Assembly: GCA_946699065.1 (NCBI GenBank)
Contig: CAMPDV010000008.1
Location: forward strand, 1,426,001 to 1,490,000
Source: Loxodes magnus
Lineage: Eukaryota; Ciliophora; Karyorelictea; Loxodida; Loxodidae
Length of the DNA stretch: 64,000 bases
Reading direction: 5' to 3'
Each line of letters opens with the position of its first letter. The stretch's first letter is position 1. The position numbers and the translations under genes are program-made. A model generated the notes under the pieces. That model was not told the origin of the DNA. It searched no databases and saw only the letters and a list, made by a program, of their open reading frames with translations. Positions 10,689-61,781 of the stretch are shown here, piece by piece.

Positions 10689-10982
10689 TCAGTTAGATAT
10701 TTATTAATTGCCTTGATACTGCTGCTGTAATTTTAAGTATTACTACCTCTGTTTTTCTATTTCTTCTTATAGACTTGCCATTGCTTTCTAAATTTAAGCC
10801 AAAGTCTAATTTATACTTTATTTAGCCTCTTATACTGTCACTTCTACCAAAACTTCTCCAACTTACCTTCAAGCTTTTCGTGTTGGTTCCATTTTTTCTA
10901 GGAATTCTAAAACTTTCTTTTGTTGATTGTATTCTTCTTGCATCATTTAAAGCTTATTATCTAGCATCTTCTGCTCTTCCAT
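10689..10982 (-). CDS. PFDN2: prefoldin subunit 2 (beta-type), short form
   Basis: A 97-residue protein (98 codons with UGA) of the prefoldin beta class, a part of the hexameric co-chaperone that hands nascent actin and tubulin to the CCT chaperonin. The core matches eukaryotic PFDN2 in order. A first helix is followed by VLEFLEKMEPTRKAWRQVGE, then VLVEVTVQEA, which lines up with the GGVLVERTVKEVLPAL hairpin of the family, then a second coiled-coil helix (QTLAQIQKAMASLQEEIEKQ). The usual second Gly of GGVLVE is Glu here. The Trp of RKAW is a TGA codon (10869-10871), while the next in-frame TGA ends the gene. About 20 residues of the first helix are missing against longer homologues. An upstream exon is possible, but no convincing one was found. 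Confidence 0.85.
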
Positions 10983-31553: not shown

Positions 31554-32984
31554 ATGGATCAAAAATTACTTGAGGATTAGGAATAGCAAAAAAAAGAGGA
31601 AGAATAAAGCTCCTTCTGAAGCAAGATCAAATAACTAAAAAACGCTCCAAGAGAGCTTTGATTAATATAGTTATTCCACTTCTTAGAAATGTACTCCACA
31701 TTCTCATTCTAGATTGTACTTATTAAATATCTAAAAGAAGATTGAGGGTACGATGATTAGACTGGTGGAAACTATTATTCGTTCAATATGTATGTAGCTA
31801 CTTTTCTTAAACTATTAAGTGGAACTTTTATTGATTGGTTTGGAGTAAAAAGAAGCTTGATTTTAGGTACTATTTTAGAAATGCTATCAAGATTATTCTT
31901 GGCATTTACCACAAACTGATATATGCTAGTTATTTCTCTTTTTTTCATCAAAACCATCGGAGGATGTATTGCAGGTCCCGCACCTTTGATAGCTATAAGA
32001 TATTATACAAATGAGAAAACAAGAAGTATATCATATAGTATATACTATGTCATAATGAACCTTGGATTCATTATATGCTCATGGCTAATTGATTTATTCA
32101 GAAGTTGGTGGTAGAATTCTCCTTTTACTTGGAATGTGTTAGGGTCGGAAGTTTTAATGACTTATAAAAGAACTATTATACTAATAACCTTTATAATTAC
32201 TGTTATAGAAGTGGTTATTGTTTTCTTCATTAGAGATATTGACTATGAAAACTCTGGTGAGAAAAAGATAGAAAAGAAGAATGAAGGTATTTGCACTGTA
32301 TTTAAGCAAGTGCTGAGTAGCCGCTCTTTTTGGTAGTATACCATTATCTGTACCTTTTTGCTAAGTACTTAGATGGTCTTTAGACATTTTGAAGCAACTA
32401 TTCCTGATTTCATGGAGAGAACAATAGGTGAAGATGCTTAATGGGGAACAGTGCTTTCTTTAAATGGAGTTTTGATCATTTTTTTAGTTCCATTGTTTGC
32501 TCCTTTAGGATATTGGCCAGATATTCTAAATGTATTCGTATTTGGAACTTTAATAGGAGCGATTGCTCCTTTTATGTGGGTGATTCACACTGAAAGCTAT
32601 GCTACTGCTATCTTATTTATAATAATTTTATCAATCAGCGAAGCAATTTACTCACCTAGAACTTACGATATTGCATTTTAATATGCAGAAAAAGGAAGAG
32701 AAGGTACATATCTAGCCTTAGCTAACCTGCCTGCAAGTGGAGCTTCAGCTGCTACAGGGTCACTGGGAGGATTTTTACTAGCAACATATCTGCCTAAAGA
32801 TAGATCGGTATATGAGCCTAGAATGATATGAATTATAATAGGATTGATATCCTTATCTTCACCTCTTTTAATTTGTAGCTTTAAAAGGTGGTTAAAGCCC
32901 CAAAACTTGAAAAAAGATTAACCGTATTAATTTTTATTTATCTAAGCTTTTAATTATCTTTAGATAATAGAGAAAGGATATTGA
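31554..32984 (+). CDS. MFS-type membrane transporter
   Basis: A 476-residue transporter with about 12 hydrophobic spans in two halves, split by a charged central loop (DIDYENSGEKKIEKKNEG, about residues 225-242). An acidic Gln/Glu-rich N-tail precedes span 1. The loop between spans 2 and 3 reads GTFIDWFGVKRS, the MFS motif-A position (G-x-x-x-D-x-x-G-x-x-R). A Gly/Ala-rich helix (LANLPASGASAATGSLGG) sits in the second half. The substrate cannot be told. Trp is written both TGG and TGA. There is no intron. The fold ends near KKD at 32920, where a TAA follows. The first TGA in frame is 32982-32984, giving a 21-residue tail of spacer-like composition. Confidence 0.85.
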
Positions 32985-34605
32985 AATATTTCTTTCTCTT
33001 AATAAATCTCCTTTATGCAACTTTAGCTCTAAGTATGCATATGAGATTTTTTGTTCTTATGCTATTAAATGAAATATTAAGTGACTTCTTTAAGAATATC
33101 TTTCCTTCATTGTGATACCAATTGTAACTTTGCTTATATAAATTAAGCTACTGTCTTGAATACCAAGCTTTTATCCAAATTCGATACTTTAAGTAAAATA
33201 TAATTCTACAAGCCTTTAGTTAGTTACTTTTACATAACTTTATGTATTCTCCCTTGCTTTATAGTTTAAAAGAAAAGAGATCATTTTAGCCTTACTATTT
33301 TAGAAATTCTTAATTCTTTCCATATATTACTTCACTCCTATTGATGTTCAAAGCAATACTAGAAGAATAAAAGCCTTTAAAAATAGTTAACCCTAATTGA
33401 GATTTGTTCCTTGTATTTAAATATCCATTTCTGTAAGCATAATCTATACTTAAGCCATAAGTTTATAGCCCTGTATAATTTAATTAAATCAGCATTCAAA
33501 AATTTAAACTTCTCTACTAATAAAAGTCTAAGCAATAGGTACTAAAGCTATTATAAATAGCAGACTATTATTATGTCAACAAATGAGCTTACAGAAAGAC
33601 TTTAATATTACACCAAGCGCAGCAGCACTATCTTGATAGCAAGCTTATATACTTCAAATAATTTCTTGAAAGGAATCTCCTTTAAATAAAGTTGAATGGG
33701 TATAAACTATAATGAATATCTAGTTAGTTAGGCTAAAATTACTAGACTAGTGGTTATTAAACCTTTAATTAATTACTGGAAAGCAATAAAGATAGAAATA
33801 AAATTAAGTGAGAATAGTGTAAATTAGAATATATCACACTGCTATTTTTAACTCACTTATATACATTACATGACATATCGTTCTCACAGTTATGATTATA
33901 ATAGAACTAATTAGTAAAATATCTATCATTTAAAATATTTAAGACTGAATTTAGAAATTCAGTGACCTTTGAAGAAACGAAATAACCAATCTCTATATGC
34001 ATAAACTCCCTATAAGATACTGATCTTAAGAATATCAAACTGTAATTTCTATTAAGGCTATAATAATTATGCAATTACGATATGCACTAAAGTATGGTGA
34101 TAGTTAAGAATATTTAAATTCATTAATAAATAGAAGGCTAATGATGAGAATTACCAATGTGATTAACTAAATTACTTTTGCATGATAATAAACTTAAATA
34201 CTTATGATAATTAAATGAGCTTACTTAACAGCAGTTAATTCTTTATTTACTATATTCCTTATTCTTCTTAAATGGCCCCCTATATAAGTTTGTGGACTAA
34301 ATTGTCTTTATTAAGAAATGAAGATATGAAACTAACAGTTTTGATGAAAAGTCCTTTGCAATAATAAATACTGACTGTATCTTAATTATTATAAGCAAAG
34401 CTTCTTTCCTTCTACTAAATAGAAAGGAGCAGGCTAGAGTATTTGGCTTTAATCCTTAAGACTGAAATAAATTAGCTGATCTACAGAAAATTGGCTTTTG
34501 TATATCTATAATTGCTTATTTAATTCTCTAAGGCTAAGGCTATTTTTATTTAATAGATGATTCGTTTAAAGTTAAAAGCTAAGCTGACACTAAAGTCAAA
34601 TAAAA
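32985..34605. other. AT-rich spacer upstream of the kinesin gene
   Basis: No coding pattern, RNA gene or repeat array was recognised on either strand. The plus strand becomes slightly richer in CT close to the kinesin start. Confidence 0.55.
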
Positions 34606-37600
34606 ATGGAAGCTGTACATGTTGTTTTTAGATTCAGAGGCGGGGAGGGAAAAACTGAATTCGCTCCCGTGAGGCTTACTGATAAATAAGTAATAGTAGA
34701 AACTTAAAAAAATCCATTCAATTTGGATGCTGTTATAGACCCTAGTAAATCACAAGCTGAGGCTTACGATATATGTGGTAGGCATGTAGTGAATTAGTTT
34801 ATGGCAGGATTTAATGGTACAATATTTGCTTATGGATAATCTGGATCTGGAAAGACCTTCACTATGATGGGTCCTGAATCTGTGACTGAGGCATTAATGT
34901 AAGATGAAAGCCAAATTCCTCCTGAAGTGCAAGCTTCTTTTGGTGTAATTCCGAGAGCTGTAGCTCATATGTTTGAAACAATAAATTAAGGTATTTAAAG
35001 AGAGTAAATATCATATACTCTAGTAGCTAGCTACATTGAAATCTACAATGAAAAGGTTAATGATATTATGTCTTGTCCTATTTAAAAGGATCTTAAAATT
35101 CGTGAACTACCTAATTTAGGCCCAACTGTTATGGGAATTAAGTAGTAGCCAATAGTAGCCCCTGAAGAGGTATTTTAGTGTATTGCAATGGGTACTGCCA
35201 ATAAATAAGTAGCCTCCACTAACTAAAACTCTAGATCTAGTAGAAGTCATACCTTATTCCTTTTAGACTTGGAACAGAAATATTTAACAGGAACAGTGAA
35301 GAAATCTCGTATCAATCTTGTTGATTTAGCTGGTAGTGAAAAAATATCTAAAACAGGCGCAGAAGGTTAAACTTTAGAAGAAGCTAAGAAGATCAATCTT
35401 AGTCTGACTACATTGGGAAGAGTCATAAAAGCACTAACAGATCCTAAAGAGAAGTTTGTACCTTACAGAGAGTCAAAACTAACAATAATCTTAAAGGAAT
35501 CTCTTGGTGGAAACAGTAAAACTTCTTTAATTTGTACGGCTTCAATGAAAGGCGTTCATATAGAAGAAACAGTAAATACTTTGAGATTTGCAGAAAGAGC
35601 GAAAATGATAGTATGTAAAGTAAAGTCAAACGTTCAAAGATCGCCAGCTGAATTAGAAAAAATTATTGAAGAATTGAAAAAAGAAATCACAACCTTGAAG
35701 AAGAAGATGGTAGAAGGTGGCTAATTGGTAATGGGTTCTGAAGAAGATGAAAATGCAAAATAGCAGTTTATTGAACTAAAGACGGAATATGAAAACTATA
35801 AAAACAGTACTATTATTCAAATTGAACAACTTAAAGATGAACTTGAAAGAGTTAGCAAAGGTGCTAACAGTTTAGAACTATCAACTTTGCAAGAAAAGTT
35901 TGAATTATTAGAGGAAGAAAACGATAGTTAAAAACAGAAAGTGGCAATCCTGGAAGTAGAGAAGTAGAATATTATCCAAGAAAAGGAGGTAAAATTAAAA
36001 GAACTTCAAGATGAAAATGGAGAACTAAAAATAATAGTTGACTAAGTAGTGAAGGATTGTGAGAATGTTGATAAACAGAAATAAGAATGCTAACTATAAT
36101 TATAGAAAGCTGAAGGAAAGATTGTTGAGTTTAAGCTATAAGTTGAACTTCTGACAAAAGAGAAATAGCAAGCAGAAAAGAAAATTAATAATTTTGATGA
36201 AGAGAGAAATAACATAAAGCAAGATCTAAATAGAGCTAAAAATGAACTTAATAAGTTGAGTTAGGAGTGTGAATATATGAGCAGTGAATTGGATTAGACA
36301 AAGAAGAGATTACAGAATGTTTAAGGAGAATTGTAAGCTTCAAAGGATGAATAATGGAAAGCTGATGAAGAAATAAAGAAATTAAAGGGTTAAATTGAAA
36401 AGCTAAAAACAGAGAATGATAAGGTTACTCATTAACATGGAGATCAAATAGCTAAGAATGAGGAACTAAAGTTAACTAATGAGAAAATCGAATAATCTTT
36501 GAAGATAGAAGTAGCTAAAACATCTTCACTAACCAGTTAAATAAACATGGTAGAAGAAGAAATAACTAAATTGAAAAAGCTTTTAACAGAGAAAGCAGGT
36601 TAACAAGAGATTTTAAAAGAGAAAGATGATTTTATCTCTAGATTAAAGATAAACAATTAAAACTAAATTGATGAAAAGAATGCAATGATTGAGGACCTTA
36701 ACAGGAAGTTAAAAGTAATATAAGAGTAGGAATTATTGAAATCTAAAGAGTAATAAGAAAAACTATAAAGCCAAATAGATCAATTCAGTCAAGAGTTGAC
36801 AAGTTTAAAAGAGAAACTAAATGTAAACGAGAGTGAATTGTATGAAGTTAAAAGAAAGAACAAAGACTAAGATGACTAAATTAAAAGATATTAAGAGTCA
36901 AATGACACGCTAAAAATGGAAAACAGAAAGTAAATTTAAGAAATACAGTCTGAGCTTTCAAAATACAAAAATCAAAGCTCTGATTTATAAGCAGACAATG
37001 AAAGATTGAAAAAGGAACTTAAAGAGTTCGAACAAACTCATAAAAAGGAATATTCTCTTGCTAAAGAATAAGCAATGGAGGCTAACAAAAAAATAATTAC
37101 TCTTTAAGGAAAAATTCAAAGTTAGAAGGAAGACGCTGATAGAATGGAAAAGTAAGTTATTTACATTTAGGAATTTCTAACAAGAAATGAATCTCAAAAC
37201 TCACGCTCTTTAAGCAGCTGAAAGACAAGCAAACACTTAAACTGAAAAAGCTTATGAACTCGAGTTAAAATTAGCATAAGCTACAGCTGATATGAACAAG
37301 CTTCGATAGGTAATTTTCTATACAGTAACTGCAAACTTTAATGAAACAAAATGAAATTTAGAGAAGAGAAACACTAGCTACAAGAATGATGGGAACTAAG
37401 AAAAACGCGAAGACAATGGGTGGTATTGGTATGGGAAAAACTATTTAGTCATAAGTAAAAAGTGTGTTTGGAGTAAATTTGAAAAAGCCTCAAAACAAAT
37501 ATTTACAAGCAGCTCTTTAAGAAAGCAATAAATTCTAAGAAGAGGATTAAGAATCAGAAAACTCAGAAAGGCTTAAAACCTCAAAAGCATCTAACAAAGA

Positions 37601-46253: not shown

Positions 46254-47346
46254 ATGGATTAAAAGCTAATAGGTAAATATATGATGACTTAAAAAATAGG
46301 AAGCGGATCGTTTGGGGAGATCTATTTAGGATAACATATTGAGAGTAATTAAGATGTAGCTATAAAGGTAGAAAAGGTTAAAAATAAGCATCCTTAGCTT
46401 AGATATGAATCTTAAATTTATAGAATACTCTAAGGAGGAGTAGGAATACCAAATTTGTACTATTTTGGAACTGAAGGAGAGTATAACTATATGGTTATTG
46501 ACTTGATGGGACCTTCTCTTGAAGATTTATTCAATTATTGCAACCGAAAACTTTCGCTAAAAACTACACTTATGCTAGCTGATTAAATGATGTCTCGCAT
46601 TGAATTCATGCATGCTAAGAATTTTTTGCATAGAGATATTAAGCCTGATAATTTCTTAATTGGTCTTGGAAAAAAAGCTAATATGGTACATGTAATTGAC
46701 TTCGGGTTGGCAAAGAAATATAGAGATAGTAAGACGTAATAGCACATTCCATACAAGGAAAACAAAAATCTGACAGGAACTGCCAGATATGTTAGTGTAA
46801 ACACTCATCTAGGAATAGAATAATCGAGAAGAGATGACTTAGAAGGTTGTGGCTATGTATTTATTTACTTTATTAAAGGAGCTTTACCTTGATAAGGAAT
46901 TTAAGGAATCTAAAAGAAGGAAAAATATGACAAGATAATGGAAAAGAAAATGTCAACTCCAGTAGAAGTTCTGTGCAAAGGTATACCCCCAGAGTTCGCA
47001 AATTATATTAATTACTGCAGAAATCTTAGATTCGAAGACAAACCTGATTATGCATATTTAAAAAGAATGCTAAAAGACTTATTTTTTAGGGAAAGCTATT
47101 AATATGATTTTATCTTTGACTGAACTGTCATGAACTTCGTAAGTTTTTGATATTAATAGAAATCCTAAAGCAAAAGCACTAAGATTAAAACCCCAGAAGA
47201 GGCTAAAGAAAATAAGAACACTGCAAAACTTGCAATAAGGGATAATAATTAAGATCAGAAAAAAGCGAAAAAGAAGTAAGTATATTTATACTCGTAGTGA
47301 TATAGCTCTGAATTAAAACGGAAAAACAAGTTCTTAAAATATGTGA
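46254..47346 (+). CDS. casein kinase 1 family Ser/Thr kinase
   Basis: A 356-residue protein kinase with all CK1 hallmarks. The Gly loop is [12 protein letters not shown], followed by AIKVEK. The catalytic loop [12 protein letters not shown] starts at about residue 126, then comes [10 protein letters not shown]. The CK1-type activation region is [25 protein letters not shown], and LPWQG and FDWT lie in the C-lobe. LPWQG is encoded CCT-TGA-TAA-GGA (46887-46898) and the FDWT Trp is also TGA, which fixes UGA=Trp and UAA=Gln in one gene. The tail after about residue 290 is Lys/Gln-rich. An intron of 22 nt (47276-47297, GTAAGT...CGTAG) leads to the short end NDIALNQNGKTSSQNM and TGA 47344-47346. 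CK1 kinases act on many acidic or primed substrates in the nucleus and cytoplasm. Confidence 0.96.
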
Positions 47347-48524: not shown

Positions 48525-50892
48525 ATGATAAGTGAATAGACTGAGTACCTTTTATCCAAGCTTTTTATGTCTATTATAGAAACTGAACATAAAGTTGAAT
48601 TGGCCAGAGAAATTCTGTGTGAAAATTCTAATTTTGAACCTTATTCTACGTTCAGACAGTTAGATAAATTAGATAAAGGGATTTTAGATGCTTAGGATTT
48701 TGAATATTTTGTGAAGAGAAATGCTGTTCAGGCGAATATTTAGGATATTAACACTCTAATTAAAAATTATGATAAGGATAGAAATTCTATTATCACTTAT
48801 ACTGAGTTCATGGAACTTGTACTTACTAACCAAAACTTAGTGCAAAGGAATATTGTTACTTAGAGAAGTGGACTTGCTTAGTAGCCTCTTCTTAGAGATG
48901 TAGAGGAATGTCTCATTAGAATTATTGAAAACGAAGTTATTGGAAATAAAAAGACAGAAAGTGTCAAAAAAGAATTGCTCAGACGGTACGATTTTAGGAC
49001 AGCAGATGCTTTTGGAACTATCGATAGAGATTAGTCAGGATATATTAATGTTGAGCAGGTGGCTTAGTTCTTACTAAGGCATGGCTATGAAGTTTCTGAT
49101 GAAGGTATTGCAGCCTTATTTAGAAGGTTCGATAAGGATAAGGATTGTTTAATTTCCTATGATGAATTTAATTATATGATACTACCTAGCGATAACTAAT
49201 AAATATAGGCCTTAAACGAGGAAAATAGCTATAAAAATAAATAATTTAGTTATATGCAAGAGAGTTATGACTAAAGAAACGAAACTGACTACTCCCATAG
49301 ACGGAAAGACTGAGATTCTTAAGATTAATCTATTCGTCAATAAGATAAAATGTATGGGGATAGCTAAAGAAATTAAGGCTATTAAAGATTCTAATAAGAG
49401 TAAGATCCACAAATCTAAGAACGCTTTGTAGCTTCAAAAAAAAGAGCAGTTTCTGAAGATACCTAAAGAGAAAACGAAATTGATAAATAGATTCAAAGAA
49501 ACAGAGAATATGAGCTGTAATTAAAACTGTAATATTAACAGAATCAGATTGAATAGCTATAAAAGACTTAATAAGAATTGCTTACTTAATCAAGATTAAA
49601 GGAAAGTTAAGAGAACATTAAGCCAGTATAAAAAGTGGAAAGATAATTGGAACCACCTAAGAGATAGATAGAACCTGATAACTATATTGGTAAGAGTGAC
49701 TTTTTCAAGGAAAAAGAGAAATAATTGTTTTAAGAGAAAATTTCAAATAGAAATGTGGAAACTTTTTAGTAAAAGTGTATAGACAAATATCTTGAGAGTA
49801 ACAAATATTGGTAAAAAAAGCCTCATATAGAAGATTTATAGCCGAAACCAAGCTCGGTTAGTTCTAAAAAGCCTCCTATCTAGTAGCCTTAAAACAAATA
49901 TTCATCTATCTATAAAAATGAGCAAGAAAGCATCTAAAAGTAAGTCCCTTAAAGATTGTAATTTTTTGAATCAAGCAAAAAGCCAGACATTTCCAGCCTG
50001 TATCCTAATAATGCTCAAGCTTTATAATAAACTTTTAAAATGTAGGAGCCACGAATAGGATATGGAGAACTTGCTCGTCAAGCAAGCAATCAATCACAAC
50101 AAATTTAGGATCAACGACCAAAGGAATTATTTAGGAGCCAGGAAAAAAATAATATCCAATAAACAGTATAAGCAGAAAAAATTTAGCAACAGTTTGATAA
50201 ACTGATTTGAATCTTTAAGCAGTAACTATAATTAGAAAAATAGTAAGAGTTGCTTAGATAGCAACTTACTCTCAAAACAGACTTTAACTTAAAAGATACA
50301 TTTTAGTATTTCGATTTGAACGATAAGAAATACTTAACACAAAGAGACATTGAAGTCACTCTATACGATCTTAACATTGAAGCTACAAGTGATTAAATTA
50401 AGTTGCTATACTTAAAATTTTAGAACAAAGAGGGAAACATTAGATACTCAGACTTCTGTCATATTTTCATGCCAAAATAAAGTTCTTACACACAAATATT
50501 GGAAAACAGAAATTCTAAAAACCCCGGTCATTTGATAAAAAAGCAGGGGAAATAAATATTCTCGCTTGAAACCTAGAACTTGATAAAAAAAGTGCTTAGC
50601 GAAATTATTTTTGTGGAAGATAGTGTAGAAAAATTGAGATGATAATTTGCCTAAGATAAAAGCTTTAATCCATATGATATCTTTATGAATTTGAATAAGA
50701 ACAGTTATGGTTATTTTACTCTAGCAGAGGTAAATTTCATTAAACCTATAGTTATAAGAAATACTCGGAGTGTACAGGATCTTCCCGAGTGAAAGAGAGT
50801 GTAAATGACTTTTAGGAAGATACGACAATGATAGAGATGGAAAAGTGACTTACAGTGAGTTTGTTCAAGAAATCACGCCTCACCTAAAGTGA
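48525..50892 (+). CDS. multi-EF-hand calcium-binding protein
   Basis: A 781-residue protein with EF-hands at both ends and a Gln-rich linker. The N-terminal set includes DKDRNSIITYTEF (about 82), DRDQSGYINVEQV (about 167) and DKDKDCLISYDEF (about 202). The middle (about 215-560) is Gln/Lys/Ser/Pro-rich and low complexity. The C-terminal set includes DLNDKKYLTQRDI (about 594, missing good acidic ligands) and a final canonical DNDRDGKVTYSEF (about 759). Calcium sensing is inferred from the loops. A 22-nt intron (50730-50751, GTAAAT...CTATAG) is required to read the last EF-hand and the ending HLK-TGA. The pattern of calmodulin-like pairs recalls ciliate cortical and basal-body EF-hand proteins, but this is a guess. 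Confidence 0.88.
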
Positions 50893-51545
50893 ATTATTTA
50901 ACGATACATTATGATTACTTTATTATTGAATATGCTTAAATTTTTTATCTATTCTTACCTCAAATTGGGTTAACAACTAGATTTTAAAGTATACTAAGAT
51001 ATTAAAATAAAGTCTCTAATCTTTAAAAAGACTAATATAAACGCAATCAAAGTTTAAGTATTAGCTTATCCTGCTCTTAATCTATAACGCTTAACTTACT
51101 TTTAGAAGAGACATCGTATAGCTTGATAAAACTTTCTAGTAAATAGAATATTCATTAGTAGCTTAATAATTATCATAGAAGCGCTTATATTTAATCAGAT
51201 AAATTAATTACTCAGTCATTAAGAAAATTCTACACCTAAAGTCTTATTAAAAGCTTCGTTACTTAAATTGAATATTCCAGATAAAGAATCTTATCAGTTA
51301 CCTTAAAGCGTATCTCTATAATCCTTATTAATTACTCTTTTTACCATTTATAGCATTATTTCCTTACCTTAATGAACAAATACGCAATTAGTAGAATATA
51401 GTTTGAGTCTAATATATAAAAGATACAAGCTTAGTCAATAAAAGGATTAGAGGAAAGAAAGATTAGTAGTGAGTTTATTTTTAAGTTATGAAAGGTAGAT
51501 TTAATTTATGTACTATGTAGAATTTATTTTGATTTGATTCTAAAT
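50893..51545. other. AT-rich spacer between plus-strand genes
   Basis: The 3' flank of the EF-hand gene and the 5' flank of the WD40 gene. Nothing recognisable lies in it. Confidence 0.55.
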
Positions 51546-52685
51546 ATGGAACTTAAAAATTTCGAACCTTCCACAGCTGATTCTGATAAACTTGTGTTTA
51601 GTAAGAGAATGAAAGATATCAGACAGTTTGATAATGAACTTGATTTCTCTGCTGCTTTCTCATAGCACTGTCATGGTAGACATATAAATGCATGCTATCA
51701 ACAGTTGAAGGCTCATGTAGGCACTGTGAAAATATTGATGGCGCTGAATAAAAACTTGTTGCTATCGGCTGGTTTTGATGGGTTAATTAATTTTTGGGAG
51801 TTTAAGGATTTAAAATTCTAGCATGTTTTGTAAATTAAAGCTAGTAGGGACGGAATAGAAAGTATATGTAAGACAGATGATTATATTATTAGTGGTGGAT
51901 GGACTTAGCTACATGTCTGGAACTTGTAAACCATTTGGGATCATATTTCTTAAGAACTTCCTCCATAAGGAAAACAAGTAAAAAATGAAAATTTTCTGTT
52001 TTAAGTAGTAGAAAACGTGCATAAGGGTTCTGTCACTTCTTTAATGGTGATTAAGGGTGAAGATAATTTGATAGCAAGTGCCTGTAGATGTATTAAGATT
52101 TGGCAAGTAGGTGTTGGATTGAAATAAGTTCTTAAGGGAAGACATAAGTTTAATATAACCTAACTAAAGTAACTTGAGAAAAAAAATTTGATTGCATCCG
52201 CTGCTGGAGATAGTATTAAGATATGAGATATTCATAAAGGTAAATGTATATAGAAACTTCCAAATCACGAAGGTTATATAACTTCCTTAGTCGAAATGTA
52301 CTGCTTTGATTATAACTTACTTATTTCAGGAAGCTTAAACTAGAAAATGTCCTTTTGAAATATATAGGAGAACTAATTACTATTTGAAACTAAGAAGGAG
52401 CAGCATGGAATTCTTTCATTAGAAATGTTATAGGATAACACTATAGTAACAGGAGGAACTGATAACGTTATAACCTTTTGGGTTAATAAGAATAATGCTT
52501 TCAAACCTTTAAAATATATTTTGGGACATCGAAGTTCAGTATAGTGCTTACTTCAATGAAAGCAAGATGTACTAATAAGTGGAGACCAGGATGGAGAAAT
52601 TAGAGTGTGGTATGCTAAAGAAGCAGTATATGATAATGCTCAGGCTTGTTGTAGGAAAAGTTGTATTGACTGCGAAATTTTCTGA
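51546..52685 (+). CDS. WD40-repeat protein
   Basis: A 379-residue beta-propeller protein without introns. About seven blades can be followed by their ends: LINFWEF, LHVWNLQ, IKIWQVG, IKIWDIHKGKC, MSFWNIQ, ITFWVNK and IRVWYAKE, several with the usual GH start (KGSVTSLMV, LPNHEGYITSL, LGHRSSVQCLL). A charged segment (1-50) precedes the first blade. The blade Trp codons include both TGG and TGA. WD40 propellers act as binding platforms, and no partner can be named. The call ends at TGA 52683-52685, just after RKSCIDCEIF. If this TGA is read as Trp, the frame goes on and gives protein-like sequence for at least 115 further codons. Confidence 0.86.
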
Positions 52686-53150
52686 ATTTTGTCAATTATT
52701 ATTATCTTAAAATATTACAAGAAACTGACTTCTTATCCATTTTCCATTAATTATAAAGCATTCAATTAAGTATACTTAACATATAGCTTCTTAGATTATC
52801 ATCATATAGATTATTTAAAAGAGCTGAATGATGTGTTTATCACAACTATGAGTACGAATACAAAGAGTTAAAATGTTATCAAATAGAATAAAAAGCTTTA
52901 TAGAAAAACAAATTCCTTACCAAAGCTTTTCATTGATATTTTTGATTTAAATAAGATAAGCCAAAAGAAATGGTTTTTTACGCTCAAGAAAGTTAAAAGC
53001 AATAGTTAGGGATATTTTAATGTTTCTAAATGAGAGCTTATTAAAAAGGAAGCATTATAGAAGAATATAGAAATAGTTGATTCAAGATGATATAAAGTAA
53101 ACAACGAGTAAATTGAAACAAAGTGTAAATACAGAATTTATTCACTTCTC
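52686..53150 (+). other. possible WD40 read-on region or small separate gene
   Basis: The WD40 frame stays open after its TGA to TGA 53031-53033 or, if that is Trp, to TGA about 53163. An in-frame ATG at about 52848 would start a basic peptide (MSTNTKSQNVIKQNKKLYRK) ending KSNSQGYFNVSK. After 53033 come more balanced residues, including KKEALQKNIEIVDSRWYKVN. The 3' end would meet the convergent K+ channel gene. It could be a C-terminal extension, a small gene, or purine-rich spacer that imitates coding sequence. Confidence 0.3.
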
Positions 53151-56034
53151 TCAACTTTTGCTTGACTTTTCGAGTAAATTGATTAGAGCCTGCAGCTTCA
53201 TATTCACCTCATTAGCTTTAGTTTTCATATCGCCTAAAGTTTCCTCCAAAACAGCAACCTATATTTAAATTAAGTCTTACTTTTCCTACTATTTGATCTT
53301 CTATCAAAGTTCTTTCTTATACTAAGCTTTGAATTCTTTAGCTTTATTATTTCATCTCTTGTATTTTCTAGCTCATTTGCTCATCTATTTCTCATTATTA
53401 AGGGAATTTTGAGGATGAATTTCTTCCTCCTAAATTCTCATCAGAGTAAGTTTTCTTAAAGCCAAGCCATTATCCAATGTCTTATGAGGATTTTGTCATA
53501 AGATCATTTTTGGTCTACATTCTGGAACTACTATTAGATTCCTAGCTTGTTGAATTTTAACTTTATAAAGTTTGATTTTTTAGTGGTTTACGCTTTTAAA
53601 CTTACTCTTCATCAGATTCACTATCCTTATCCTCTTATGATATTAGCTTCTAATACTTTTTATCATTTTCCTTAGTCATCGGAATCTCTACATTATTTTA
53701 CGTTATTGACATAAAAGAAGTCTTTTAGTCTTTGCCAATTTTAGGCAGTTTCTTCCTTTTGATGTCATTTTCAGATTAATCATTTTCTTTTTCTTCATCT
53801 TCCTCAGAAATTGGCAATACTTGAGATTTTCTATTTCTGTTAAATTTGAAACTTCCAGTGTTCGTCTTTCGTATAGCTTCATGCTCATTTTTATTTTCTT
53901 AATTCTAGTTTGTTTCCTTTTTAAAGGCAAATCCATTTTCACTGGCATTTTTTATAATTTATCCTTTCTTCGCTGAATATGAGGCTTGTCTACTTGCGTA
54001 AGAAAACTTGCTATTTTCCCAGTCATCATTTTCTTAATTCATATCTGGTGAAACGGAATTCCCTTTTTTTAATTTGGGATTTTATATATCTAGTAAAAAG
54101 TCCTTTTTGCTATTGAGTGCTTCTACAGAAAATCCTCTTGATATATTCTTAGCGTTTATCAGACCTTAAGATGTTTTGGTTTCTTGCTTTTCCTATTTAT
54201 AGCTTAGCCTGTTTTATGACTTGAAATCTACAACTCCTTTTTCTTCATTGATGATGATCTTATTAGCTGCATTTCCTTAAGTTAATTAATTCAACTCCTC
54301 CATATGCTTCCTTGACATCTAATTTCTCTTATCCCTCATTTTTGCGTTAAGCTTTATTTCCTTCGCTATTGCTGGAAATTCTTCGAGTATTTGATTGAAA
54401 TCTTTCTTAGATAGAAGTAAAAGTTCACATTCACAGTTAGGAGGAACTTAAACTGTGAAGGACCTATTTCTCTCTTCCAGTATATCACACTCTCCGAAGT
54501 AGCTTCCTTCGATATATGTCTTGAATGTTATATTATCTTTTGTCTTTAGATAAACTCTTCCTTGCACTAAGAAGTAGATTTCCTCTGCATGATCATCTTC
54601 CTTATATACATATTCATTCGCCTATAGATGCATTGATTTTAACTTAGGTACTATAGCTGCTACAAAATTTGGATCCTTCTCCTTCAGAAAAGCAATCTTG
54701 TTTACAATCCTAGAGTGCATGTGCATTGCTACATCAGCTCTTAGAGCAGCTGGAAGTTCTTTTAGCAAGTTTTCTTAGTCAAACCAAGAGTAGATATTCT
54801 CTTTGTGATTGTGCTCAATAAACTGCTTAATCCTCCATTTCAGATCTTCAGGGAGTTTAGTTTCTTTTGCAAATTCGTTTAAAGTTTGTAACCTAGCTCT
54901 AAGATGATTTGAACGTTGATCCATATTAGCCATAATAGTAGACAAGTTACCAATAGTATAAGAATAAAAGGCTACACCGAAAGTCATCCAACATATTGCA
55001 AAGATTTTCTCCACAACTGTATAAGCAACGATATCACCAAACCCAACAGTAGTCAAGGTGGTGAAGACTCAGTATAAACTAGCTAAATACTTGTCTAAGT
55101 TACTAGAGTCCAAATAGCCATGTCTTACAATCCAAGTTTAATAATTGAAATCATCCATAGCAGCTGTATAATACCAAAAGCATGCTATTAAGTGAACCAG
55201 AATAATGACAGTAAAAGCGAACCTAAACAATCTTATAATACCCATATTCATTTTAAGGACTTTAAGAATATACCTCATAAGTGAATTGTATCTGAAAAGC
55301 CTGACCATTTTAATGATTCTGATGATTCTTATTAGCTTATATAAACGAGGTAATCTTACAAGTCTTACAAGCTTGTTATAATTTCCTTAACTAGAATTGT
55401 CCGAGAAAATCAGCTACGTTGGGAAAGTAGCTACAAGATCAAAAACCAGTCAACTTTTTGCATATGAACAGATAATAATTTTAGGGTCTGACACAAGAAT
55501 ATTATTATCATCGTAATAGGCACTAAAAACATTTACTATAATGTCAAATCCAAAAACACTATCTACAACATAATCAAAGATTAACCAATCATCGCTTGAA
55601 GTTTCGATGAAGCAGATCTTATATGGAAGGACAAAAGCTACATATAGAAGAAAAAATGTTATGTTCATATTTCAAGCTCTTTTGAAATACGACTCTGGAT
55701 GTATTATGAATCATCTTATTGACTTAAGTTCCTTTTCATATTCCTAGTCTTTCCTTTCACTATAATGCTGCTTTGTTACACCATATAGCTGGATTTCCTT
55801 CTATAATCTATTAATTCTGGCCATTATTCGAGAAGCAGAAACGGTTTTCTTCCATAGGTATTTAACACGCTCTTTCATTGCCTTTTTTTTCTATAATTCT
55901 ACATCCTCCACAGAGCTTTTTCTAGCATCAAACGAAGTTTCGAATGAATCTTCCTGATTATCCTCCTAATGATCTGGATTTAATCTACAGTCTGTAGTAT
56001 TTACTTACAGTTTATCTTGATTTTCTTCAGCCAT
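53151..56034 (-). CDS. voltage-gated K+ channel with cyclic-nucleotide-binding domain
   Basis: A 953-residue channel of the EAG/HCN/CNG superfamily. An acidic N-tail of about 120 residues is followed by S1-S3, an S4 rich in evenly spaced Arg/Lys (KLVRLVRLPRLYKLIRIIRI), S5 and the pore TTLTTVGFGD (filter GFG at about 331-333, so K+ selective). A C-linker and a cNMP-binding domain follow (about 440-570; GRVYLKTKD, GSYFGECDIL). In the phosphate-binding cassette the usual RTA is RSF (ERNRSFTV), so cyclic-nucleotide binding may be weak or lost. The last 300 residues are disordered and then coiled coil. The pore-helix Trp (LYWVFTT, about residue 322) is TGA 55069-55071. A 22-nt intron (53259-53280, GTAAGA...AATATAG) leads to the coiled-coil end and TGA 53151-53153. 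Confidence 0.94.
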
Positions 56035-58522: not shown

Positions 58523-60779
58523 ATGGCTCTTTTTAATCAAAGTAGGAGGACACCAAATACTACCAATAGATTTGTACCTAAAAAGAATTTATACTCAACT
58601 GAGTTTCCTTTTATCACTAGAGAGTAGAAAGAACATTCTAAGAAATTAAAAAACTTGGCTGATATATAAAATTTAGTTCAGTCTTATAAGAAAAAGCAGA
58701 ACTAAAAGCATAAAAGTTCTAAAAGTTTTGATTTGAAGGAACTTTAGATGCTAAGTAATACTATAGACTAGTCTACTAAGGATATATCTGATTTTGCTCT
58801 TGATAGTAGAAATTACGAAGCGGAAAGTTTATTTATAAACCTGAGCAAATTTGATTTATAAGTTAGGGAGTCATCGTATAAAATGAGAATAATAAACGAC
58901 TAAGATAAAATTCAGAAGATGAAAGACTAAGTACTATAGACTCATGCTATTTTAGAGTTTCTATAAGAATAACTTGAAGGATTATTAAAGATACCTATAT
59001 TAGAAAAAGTCCATGTACTGAAAATTAGTGAACGACTTTACAGAATTCTCAACAAAGAAGAAACTTTTGGAGATATGTAAACGAAGTCATAGTAAGTAAA
59101 TAAGCAGTTTAAGTATCATTTGTCATACTAGCAAACAATTATTTAGGTATGTTTGTCTATGCTTTATTTAGGAATTAAATGCTAAGATAGAAAAACTGGA
59201 AGCAACGATAACTAGCTTAGAAACAACAAATTAATTATTAAATGAATAGATTAAGCAAATCAAGTCAAAACTTGATTAAACAAATTAACTACTTTTTGCC
59301 TAGAAAGAAGCATATGAAAAATAGCTAACAGAATTAAGAGAAAAATATACTTAATTACTTACTGAAAGGTCGGGATAAATATAAATTATGGAAAAGTAGG
59401 ATAGATCAAAAAAGGGGAAAAAGGCAAATCTTGGTAACTAAAATAGGATTTGGAAAATATATGGAATAATATAAACAGTTTTCAACTACGATTAGTTGGA
59501 TAAAGTAAGTTCTATTATTCAGGGAATTGAATTAATTACTTCAGATATAGCCCGAGCAATGTAATGCTCATTTGTATGCTTAGCACTTCCAACTTTGAAC
59601 TTAGCGAATTTCAATCTCCATTATAATTTAATTCATGATAAGAAAATAACTGCAACTTCGTTAATAGGCACAGTATTTTTCCATAAAGAAACTATAATGG
59701 TAAATGATCAGAACGAGCCAAAGTATGAGCAAAGGCTTCCAATAGTATTTAGATGTATTGTTAAGAACTTTATAATGGTACCAGTCTTTAATACTTTCTA
59801 AGAATGCATAGGAGTTCTTATTGCAGTCAATAAGCTTGAAGAAAACTTCAACAATATAGATATTGACCATTTCCAACGCCTTTCTATCTTGCTTCAGATT
59901 TTTATACTTAAAATTGATTTGCTGAAAAAAGCTGAAGAAGAGTAGCATAGAACTAAGATAATAAATGACTCTATTTAGAAATTGACAGTGTGTGATAAAA
60001 TTGAACCTATGCTTTAAATAGCTGAAGTGCTTATACAAAGCATGCTATAGTGTGAAAGATGTACAATATGGTTTGTGGAAAAGAATTATATGGAACTGTA
60101 TAGATAGTGCGGAAAAGACTTAGCAGTAATACCAATCAATGAGGGATTAACAGGACAATGTGCAAAAACGAGAACACCGATTATATGTAACCATACTTTA
60201 AGTGAAAAGAAGTTTAATAAGTTTGTAGATGATCCTCAAACAATTAAGTCAAGAATGAATAGAATTATTTAGATGCAAAAGAAACCAGAAAATTAGAATG
60301 ACCTACAGTAGAGAATTATTATAGATAATAGTATGGAAAACTAAGGTATGACTGAAGAAGACATGATAGCATAAAAGTTAGAAAATTTTTTGCCTCCTAA
60401 TAAAATCCTTCTAGTTCCTTTAATATACGCAGAGGAGGAAGGACTTGCAAGTTACGAGTTACCGAGAGGAGTAATCATTGCAACTGATAAAACTTCAGGG
60501 GAAGATTTTATGTCGTCTGATATTAGAAGCCTTAAGTAATTTGGCCATATATTAATAAGAATAATTGATATCATCTAGATAATCGAAGTTTTTTATGGGC
60601 TTAGAGTTACCTTAAAGAAAATGGTAGAATCAAGTTAAGAAGTAGAGGGAGGCTTACTGTAGTCAACTACACAGATGAGCTGGCTTAAGAAATCTCTTAT
60701 AAAATTTGAAACTATGATTAAAGATGTTTAGCAGGAACAAAAAAATATCCAAGAAAAGACTTATACAAAAGAGATTTGA
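58523..60779 (+). CDS. GAF-domain protein with coiled coil
   Basis: A 743-residue soluble protein (744 codons after one intron). A Lys/Gln-rich helical region (1-200) and a coiled coil (about 205-300) precede two GAF-like domains. The first covers about 340-470 (IGVLIAVNKLEENFNNID, the common GAF end strand followed by the last helix). The second covers about 500-690 (CTIWFVEKNYMELY, then NEGLTGQCAKTRTPIICNH, later VIIATDKTSGEDF) with an insert of about 60 residues before its last strands. GAF domains of this kind (cf. phosphodiesterases, adenylyl cyclases) bind cyclic nucleotides or other small ligands, but no enzyme domain follows here. A 25-nt intron lies at 59147-59171 (GTATGT...ATTTAG). 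A helix and TGA 60777-60779 end it. Confidence 0.85.
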
Positions 60780-61781
60780 AGATACACTATTTTATTTCAG
60801 TTCTTCACATCTTGATAAATTAGCTTGAAGTTCTTAATTTAAAACATTAAAATAATTAGAAGTAAATGTAACGAATTGTATAGTGTGCTAATATCCATTA
60901 ATAACTTATTAATTAATCTTAAATCAGCAAAAAAGTAGATAAATTTTGGTAAAATTTCTTTAGAGTTCAACAATATAGAAAACAGCGAAAAATTTATTTG
61001 AGCAAAATTATTAAAAAGTTGCACGATTATAGAATACATTAAATAGTGATAATACTTAACAAATTAATAGAAAGAAACGGCTCTTTCTTGGTAAATTTTT
61101 AAATCTTATTCTTTGAAGTAAATTACATGATATATTATTTCCGCTTGCAAGGCTTTTTAATTAGTAGGAAGCTTACTATTAATATAGAAACTTGCCTTTT
61201 GTAGTAAAAGCTAATTTTGCCTTATTTTCTTCGATTTTGTTGGACATTAAAAATTTAATTTAAATAGTGTATCTAAAAATCTCTTTACTTCATTATAGTA
61301 AACATAATACTAAAGATTGTAAATTTAGTTGCACAAATTATTATTTAATCTACTATTCCTTTCAATGAAATAAACTAGGCTAACTATAAATTCCAAAACG
61401 TTTCTATATGATAATTTGGTTAAATTATAGTGGTTGATCATGTGCACTACTTACTAAGTAAATTAACAAGCTCTGCTAAATTTCTTCTTCAAAATATAGA
61501 GATTTAATGAGGAATGTTATCGTATTTATAATATGATATAGTTACTAAAAAGCTTCACTATTCCATTCCTTGTAAAAAATAAATGGAACTAGAGAATGAT
61601 TATATATAATTGTCAGTATTTTATAGTCAATCACTAAGCATAATTTTGCTAGCTATTAAAAGTTTAACTGAGTTATATTTAGTGTAGATTTATTTTCAAT
61701 TGTAAAGAATTTCAATATTTTAACTAAGTTGGTTTTTAGATTTTATTCAATTTTAGATTATCCTTAGTTAATATTAAATAT
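60780..61781. other. AT-rich spacer upstream of the tRNA
   Basis: The 3' flank of the GAF gene followed by plain AT-rich DNA. No gene or repeat was recognised. Confidence 0.55.

Follow-up and report, generated by a model that had tools for sequence, protein, structure and literature searches.

The casein kinase 1 (CK1) gene in a 64,000-nt stretch of Loxodes magnus DNA (the window) raises the question of how one codon can both encode an amino acid and end a protein, because TGA stands within a conserved motif of this gene and again at its end. The original prediction held that UGA stands for Trp within genes but for stop where they end, with UAA and UAG as Gln, and we find that this reading holds across independent gene families. 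As judged from sequence, L. magnus almost certainly uses the karyorelict nuclear code, NCBI table 27: internal TGAs lie at positions of Trp and TAA and TAG at positions of Gln, TGA stands at nearly all of the examined ends with a recognisable C-terminus, and termination would be set by position and not by a dedicated stop codon. Table 27 is the Loxodes/karyorelict code, and work by Seah et al. in 2022 reportedly described it for karyorelicts including Loxodes. The CK1 stretch itself is an ordinary casein kinase gene of this karyorelict ciliate.

Read with table 27 from position 46254, the CK1 frame matched solved CK1 structures in a phmmer search, the best of them (3sv0, which we take to be rice CK1) with an E-value of 7.6e-150 and the CK1 delta structure 1cki with an E-value of 1.2e-143. 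The LPWQG motif had been said to be written CCT-TGA-TAA-GGA; these letters are present at 46887-46898, and the TGA is aligned with the invariant Trp (Table 1). The last of the three internal TGAs listed for this gene lies outside the part aligned with homologues and probably also encodes Trp. The further claim that CK1 ends at another TGA is correct insofar as the end is a TGA whichever way the 3′ part is read, but the most distal TGA serves as the end only if a predicted intron is removed. The length of this intron, 22 nt, fits that of published Loxodes introns (mean 19.3 bp, PMC11441545). With the intron removed the predicted C-terminus is ...NGKTSSQNM, followed directly by the terminal TGA; in the unspliced sequence the next in-frame TGA is at 47298.

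Table 1. Features of the window that bear on the meaning of TGA, TAA and TAG (positions counted from the first letter of the window)
Feature	Positions	Strand	Basis
CK1 gene, read with table 27	46254-47346	+	phmmer, translation, splice model
Sense TGA, Trp of LPWQG, followed by TAA as Gln	46890-46892	+	alignment with rice CK1 and human CK1 delta
Sense TGA, Trp of FDW	47121-47123	+	alignment with rice CK1 and human CK1 delta
In-frame TGA past the aligned kinase part, probably Trp	47148-47150	+	translation
Predicted 22-nt GT-AG intron, GTAAGT...GTAG	47276-47297	+	removal gives a frame ending at TGA 47344
Terminal TGA, predicted stop	47344-47346	+	splice model
Sense TGA, pore-helix Trp of a cyclic-nucleotide-gated-type K+ channel	55069-55071	-	alignment to AKT1 SMYWSITTLTTVGYGD
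Sense TGA, Trp of KSW in the same K+ channel gene	55450-55452	-	alignment to HCN1 YLKSWFVVDF
Sense TGA at the Trp of a WD40 repeat (KMSFWNI)	52356-52358	+	within the WD40 Pfam match of 50841-53279
Sense TGA in prefoldin subunit 2 (TRKAW)	10869-10871	-	aligned with Tyr of human prefoldin 2
Kinesin motor and coil, 54 TAA/TAG as Gln, no TGA	34603-37191	+	

Several other genes of the window had been named as showing the same double use of UGA, and they proved to be of unequal value. In the K+ channel the pore-helix TGA does correspond to a Trp of AKT1 (HCN1 has Lys at this place), and in the WD40 gene the TGA falls, as claimed, on the Trp of a repeat inside the Pfam match. The RKAW of prefoldin is a weaker case; the gene contains the TGA, but human prefoldin 2 has Tyr there. 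The kinesin segment provides no example of UGA as Trp, since there is no TGA among its 863 codons and TAA and TAG are the only reassigned codons in it, contrary to what had been claimed. Kinesin and prefoldin were therefore poor examples. The HEAT-repeat match in the window is PF20210. Further window genes recognised by Pfam are an MFS transporter and a GAF-domain protein (31782-33425 and 58704-61253, both on the + strand), together with matches to ankyrin, EF-hand and, weakly, START; several stretches in between yielded no Pfam match.

For a larger sample of internal codons, the residues at TGA, TAA and TAG were tabulated, as had been proposed, in an alignment of 70 kinase domains (30 taken as loci and 40 fetched) out of at least 136 reported, the other 66 being left out. 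A column counted as a majority column if it held 30 or more other residues and one residue made up a 50% majority. Of 35 TGA codons in such columns 32 were on Trp, which argues against chance and is not the scatter over random residues that would have spoken against the reading; the remaining three sat on Ile (two) or Leu (one) columns, and two of these three adjoin a Trp column. The column profile of TGA correlated with that of Trp at r = 0.999. For TAA and TAG the best profile was Gln (r = 0.981 and 0.987, respectively), followed by Lys (about 0.80), with Glu at about 0.68. UGA as Trp within genes, as table 27 has it, is therefore seen in the kinase columns and in the CK1 and channel alignments alike.

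The same data bear on the plain ciliate code (table 6), under which UGA would be only a stop and the internal TGAs would be spliced out, RNA-edited or confined to pseudogenes. Introns in this genome are very short, and one is predicted in CK1 itself, so that the loss of a TGA by splicing is worth considering. The strongest Trp column, however, has TGG in 39 and TGA in 23 of the 70 otherwise unbroken kinase frames (the other 8 have neither), and the CK1 and channel TGAs replace single conserved residues with no gaps. We find this explanation scarcely credible, and read the internal TGAs as Trp.

The codon used at gene ends was read from recognisable C-termini. A pattern admitting TAA, TAG, TGA and TGG after GFGG, whose matches we take to be histone H4 from this C-terminal motif, gave TGA in 9 out of 9 matches. 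All 20 actin loci that were read end in KCF-TGA, although the copies are so similar that they represent hardly more than one observation. Both eRF1 genes finish where expected, with DEDFL-TGA, and shortly after this point an indel distinguishes one copy from the other. For the Ras-family GTPases, 60 of 147 matches were used, taken from among the higher-scoring ones that extend to the end of the domain; their ends were placed by eye with the help of C-terminal motifs. TGA was the stop in 56 of these and TAA a candidate stop in 4; TAG was assigned in none. A C-terminal Cys motif was present in 49 (45 with TGA and 4 with TAA), and in the 11 without it the ends are less certain and the TGA less independent. 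Four further genes in which CC-TAA is followed by TGA directly or one codon on, and three with TAG directly before TGA, were counted as TGA, although the TAA or TAG could be the stop. UGA as stop, the second meaning that table 27 gives to it, is what the H4, actin and GTPase ends display. As a separate observation, there were about 40 full-length actin matches of near-equal score on contigs C266, C524, C707, C711, C1162, C437 and others, many of them on few contigs, with several TAG and TAA and no TGA inside the match.

If UAA, UAG and UGA all served as stops near transcript ends, as in a code of the Condylostoma type (table 28), this would account for the TAA found directly after the C-terminal motif in four of the 60 GTPases (L135, L139, L149 and L174). 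In three of the four candidates the TAA could be lost with a possible 16-30 nt GT-AG intron, but at least one C-terminal Cys would go with it, and in L174 such an intron would bring up a TGA at once; one candidate has no intron alternative of this kind. UAG, on the other hand, was assigned as a stop in 0 of 60 GTPases (counting the three TAG-TGA genes as TGA), 0 of 9 H4 and 0 of 20 actins. It also appears to be sense at three codons or fewer from the end, where KCC-TAG-YV-TGA stands against KCC-TGG-YV-TGA in a related gene, and where ATAN-TAG-TGA stands against ATAN-Q-TGA in another. We consider a code of the Condylostoma type very unlikely. Under the table 27 reading that we prefer, the claim that no codon is reserved for stopping is upheld by internal UGA as Trp, with the qualification that UAA is perhaps not purely sense in view of the four candidates.

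It had been suggested that the ribosome separates the two kinds of UGA by position or by 3′ context. In the last 15 codons before the 60 GTPase stops TGA occurs in 0 of 900 codons, compared with 63 in about 9600 codons of the domains (taken as 160 each; p = 0.006), and the ratio of TAA to TAG is 19:39 there against 283:129 in the domains (p = 2.6e-7), these being tail statistics that may include unremoved introns and tail-specific amino-acid bias. The reversal comes mainly from commoner TAG (p = 6e-9), the rarity of TAA alone not being significant (p = 0.17). Published work on L. magnus reports a depletion of UGA and UAA over about 20 codons before the stop that does not extend to UAG (PMC11441545). 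Our data agree with this in part: sense UGA is avoided just before the stop, as in table 27, whereas the TAA:TAG ratio is reversed mainly via TAG.

Alternatively, the nucleotides that directly follow UGA, rather than how far away the mRNA end lies, would separate its sense from its stop use. At stops the base after TGA does lean to G (15 of 56 GTPase stops versus 11 of 62 sense TGAs in kinases), and the 60 nt downstream of GTPase stops are 81% A+T. The overall difference in this base is not clear, however (chi-square p = 0.13, in a comparison that covers +4 only), and the absence of sense TGAs from the last 15 codons is what position dependence predicts, in line with the published depletion. 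We regard a signal in the immediate context as unlikely. Since the +4 base does not distinguish the two classes and no TGA occurs in the last 15 GTPase codons, position is favoured over immediate context as the feature that would mark a UGA as a stop. The published mean 3′ UTR of L. magnus is 53 bp (PMC11441545).

We then turn to the molecules that would read these codons. The original prediction pointed to a tRNA-Trp(UCA) or a variant tRNA-Trp(CCA), and it is the variant that we found. An anticodon-arm pattern that would accept either CCA or UCA found 76 matches, every one with CCA: 72 of them are on contig C148, and the remaining 4 are on C110 and C7736. The C148 matches lie in C148:155434-209573 (L109-L112), most of them in a tandem array with a unit of about 241 nt. 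In the copies that were read (five complete and one partial, from four stretches) the anticodon stem has 4 bp, with an unpaired U.C on top; the other C148 matches are known as 25-base strings only, and their stem letters are all identical. The copies that were read also have a T-run 3′ of the gene. An initial tRNA-Trp pattern (11 matches) had reached only two tRNAs, both on C110, because the D loop of the C148 genes contains GGCA and not GGTA. In three of the four matches outside C148 the anticodon stem is paired at all five positions, and the one on C7736 has a mismatch lower in the stem. An extra base is present in the T arm of L096, L105 and L106 and a mismatch in the T stem of L097; ARAGORN calls L096, L097 and L105 putative tRNA-Trp. 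None of the 76 anticodon-arm matches was UCA, and with a looser UCA pattern there were 21 matches, compared with 13 in a reversed control, none of the 21 having more than three of five stem pairs; a very different sequence would escape these patterns. A tRNA-Trp(CCA) with an unpaired top pair (72 of 76 matches) and no UCA form by either pattern is what the 4-bp-stem mechanism calls for. Also on C110, two stretches (L107, 31-103, and L108, 30-102) have bodies 85-86% like the C110 tRNA-Trp and are called tRNA-Arg(CCT) and tRNA-Met(CAT); they look as if their anticodon arms had been swapped.

A 4-bp-stem tRNA-Trp of Loxodes is already in print (PMC13092985 and PMC12005148, citing Swart et al.), and the array of 72 matches on a single contig is not mentioned in the available passages of these papers. 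The same unpaired U.C as in the C148 genes has been described in Amoebophrya, and the pair in Condylostoma is stated to be identical (PMC12005148).

For the glutamine codons a tRNA-Gln(UUA) pattern gave 178 matches against 1 for a reversed control, and three fetched copies fold as tRNAs. Together with the kinase profiles these genes agree with UAA and UAG as Gln in table 27. The companion tRNA-Gln(CUA) that had also been proposed was not found with the same D arm, and none of the 178 matches, 100 of which were listed, is CUA; tRNA-Gln(UUA) is a candidate that may read UAG by wobble. At C214:232580-237600 (L114) tRNA-Gln(UUA) is repeated about every 275 nt, and a second tRNA-like stretch, with no ARAGORN call, was seen by eye in the repeat unit.

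The predicted changes in the release factor were present as well. Two eRF1 genes (L010 and L011), both on contig C196, carry RAQNIKS, FLCENTF and Ala70 together with E55A and Y125F. The first three equal the entries tabulated for Loxodes striatus eRF1 (PMC4695839), which agrees with a karyorelict host, and the name karyorelict-type ambiguous code is fitting. In human eRF1, activity on UAA, UAG and UGA is 75, 35 and 80% of wild type for E55Q and 100, 34 and 100% for Y125F (PMC4698671). By analogy, the changes at 55 and 125 would fit weak recognition of UAG, and we infer their combined effect in Loxodes, which has E55A and not E55Q. A review gives the Loxodes eRF1 motifs a UGA-only specificity; this is a further point against a Condylostoma-type code, and it speaks against residual recognition of UAA. 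The best eRF1_1 match, L009, was rejected as an eRF1. Its N-terminal sequence has a motif on which we take it to be Pelota/Dom34-like.

Because TAA is a candidate stop in 4 of 60 GTPases, the TAA:TAG ratio is reversed before stops, and eRF1 carries E55A and Y125F, we tentatively raise an extension that we judge to have slightly less than an even chance of being right. UAA may be ambiguous too, standing for Gln within gene bodies and for stop at the extreme end of a small share of genes, while UAG may be nearly invisible to the release factor and a single amplified family of 4-bp-stem tRNA-Trp may read both UGG and UGA. Rare UAA stops are said to have been suggested already in the abstract of Seah et al. 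2022.

Translation would be the default at UGA, with the 4-bp-stem tRNA-Trp as the putative reader, and eRF1 would win at UGA only near the transcript end. This follows the model of Swart et al. 2016 (PMC4967479), with translation by default and termination close to the end. Whether position in the mRNA can set termination is what codes lacking a dedicated stop codon put to the test; published work on Condylostoma has proposed the idea and tested it, and it has been carried over to karyorelicts, Loxodes among them. The ambiguous code of Loxodes is already known, and our finding is a correct reading of known biology to which the CK1 locus adds little beyond an independent check by gene family. 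The leads are the tRNA-Trp array, eRF1 positions 55 and 125 and the possible rare UAA stops; within open-licence PMC papers, the 72-match array and the link of E55A/Y125F to UAG tolerance are possibly unreported.

Comparison with known systems places this code close to, but not within, two others. In Blastocrithidia UAR is Glu and UAA also a stop, and UGA is read as Trp by a 4-bp-stem tRNA-Trp(CCA) together with eRF1 changes that include position 70 (PMC12153298). UGA as Trp, the 4-bp-stem tRNA-Trp(CCA) and a change at eRF1 position 70 are shared with L. magnus; unlike in Blastocrithidia, UAR here is Gln, the best profile being Gln and not Glu, UGA is the main stop, and residue 70 is Ala rather than Gly. 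Condylostoma magnum (table 28) likewise has no codon reserved for stopping and terminates by closeness to the transcript end. All three codons are stops there; in L. magnus the TAA candidates are few, and TAG was not assigned as the stop at any of the ends read. An earlier transcriptome survey gave UGA as stop in all of its karyorelicts (PMC6935857). Table 27 (Parduczia sp. and Loxodes) has the same meanings as found here, UAA and UAG as Gln and UGA as Trp or stop, and no tested point contradicts it; the 4 candidate UAA stops among 60 GTPases would go slightly beyond that table.
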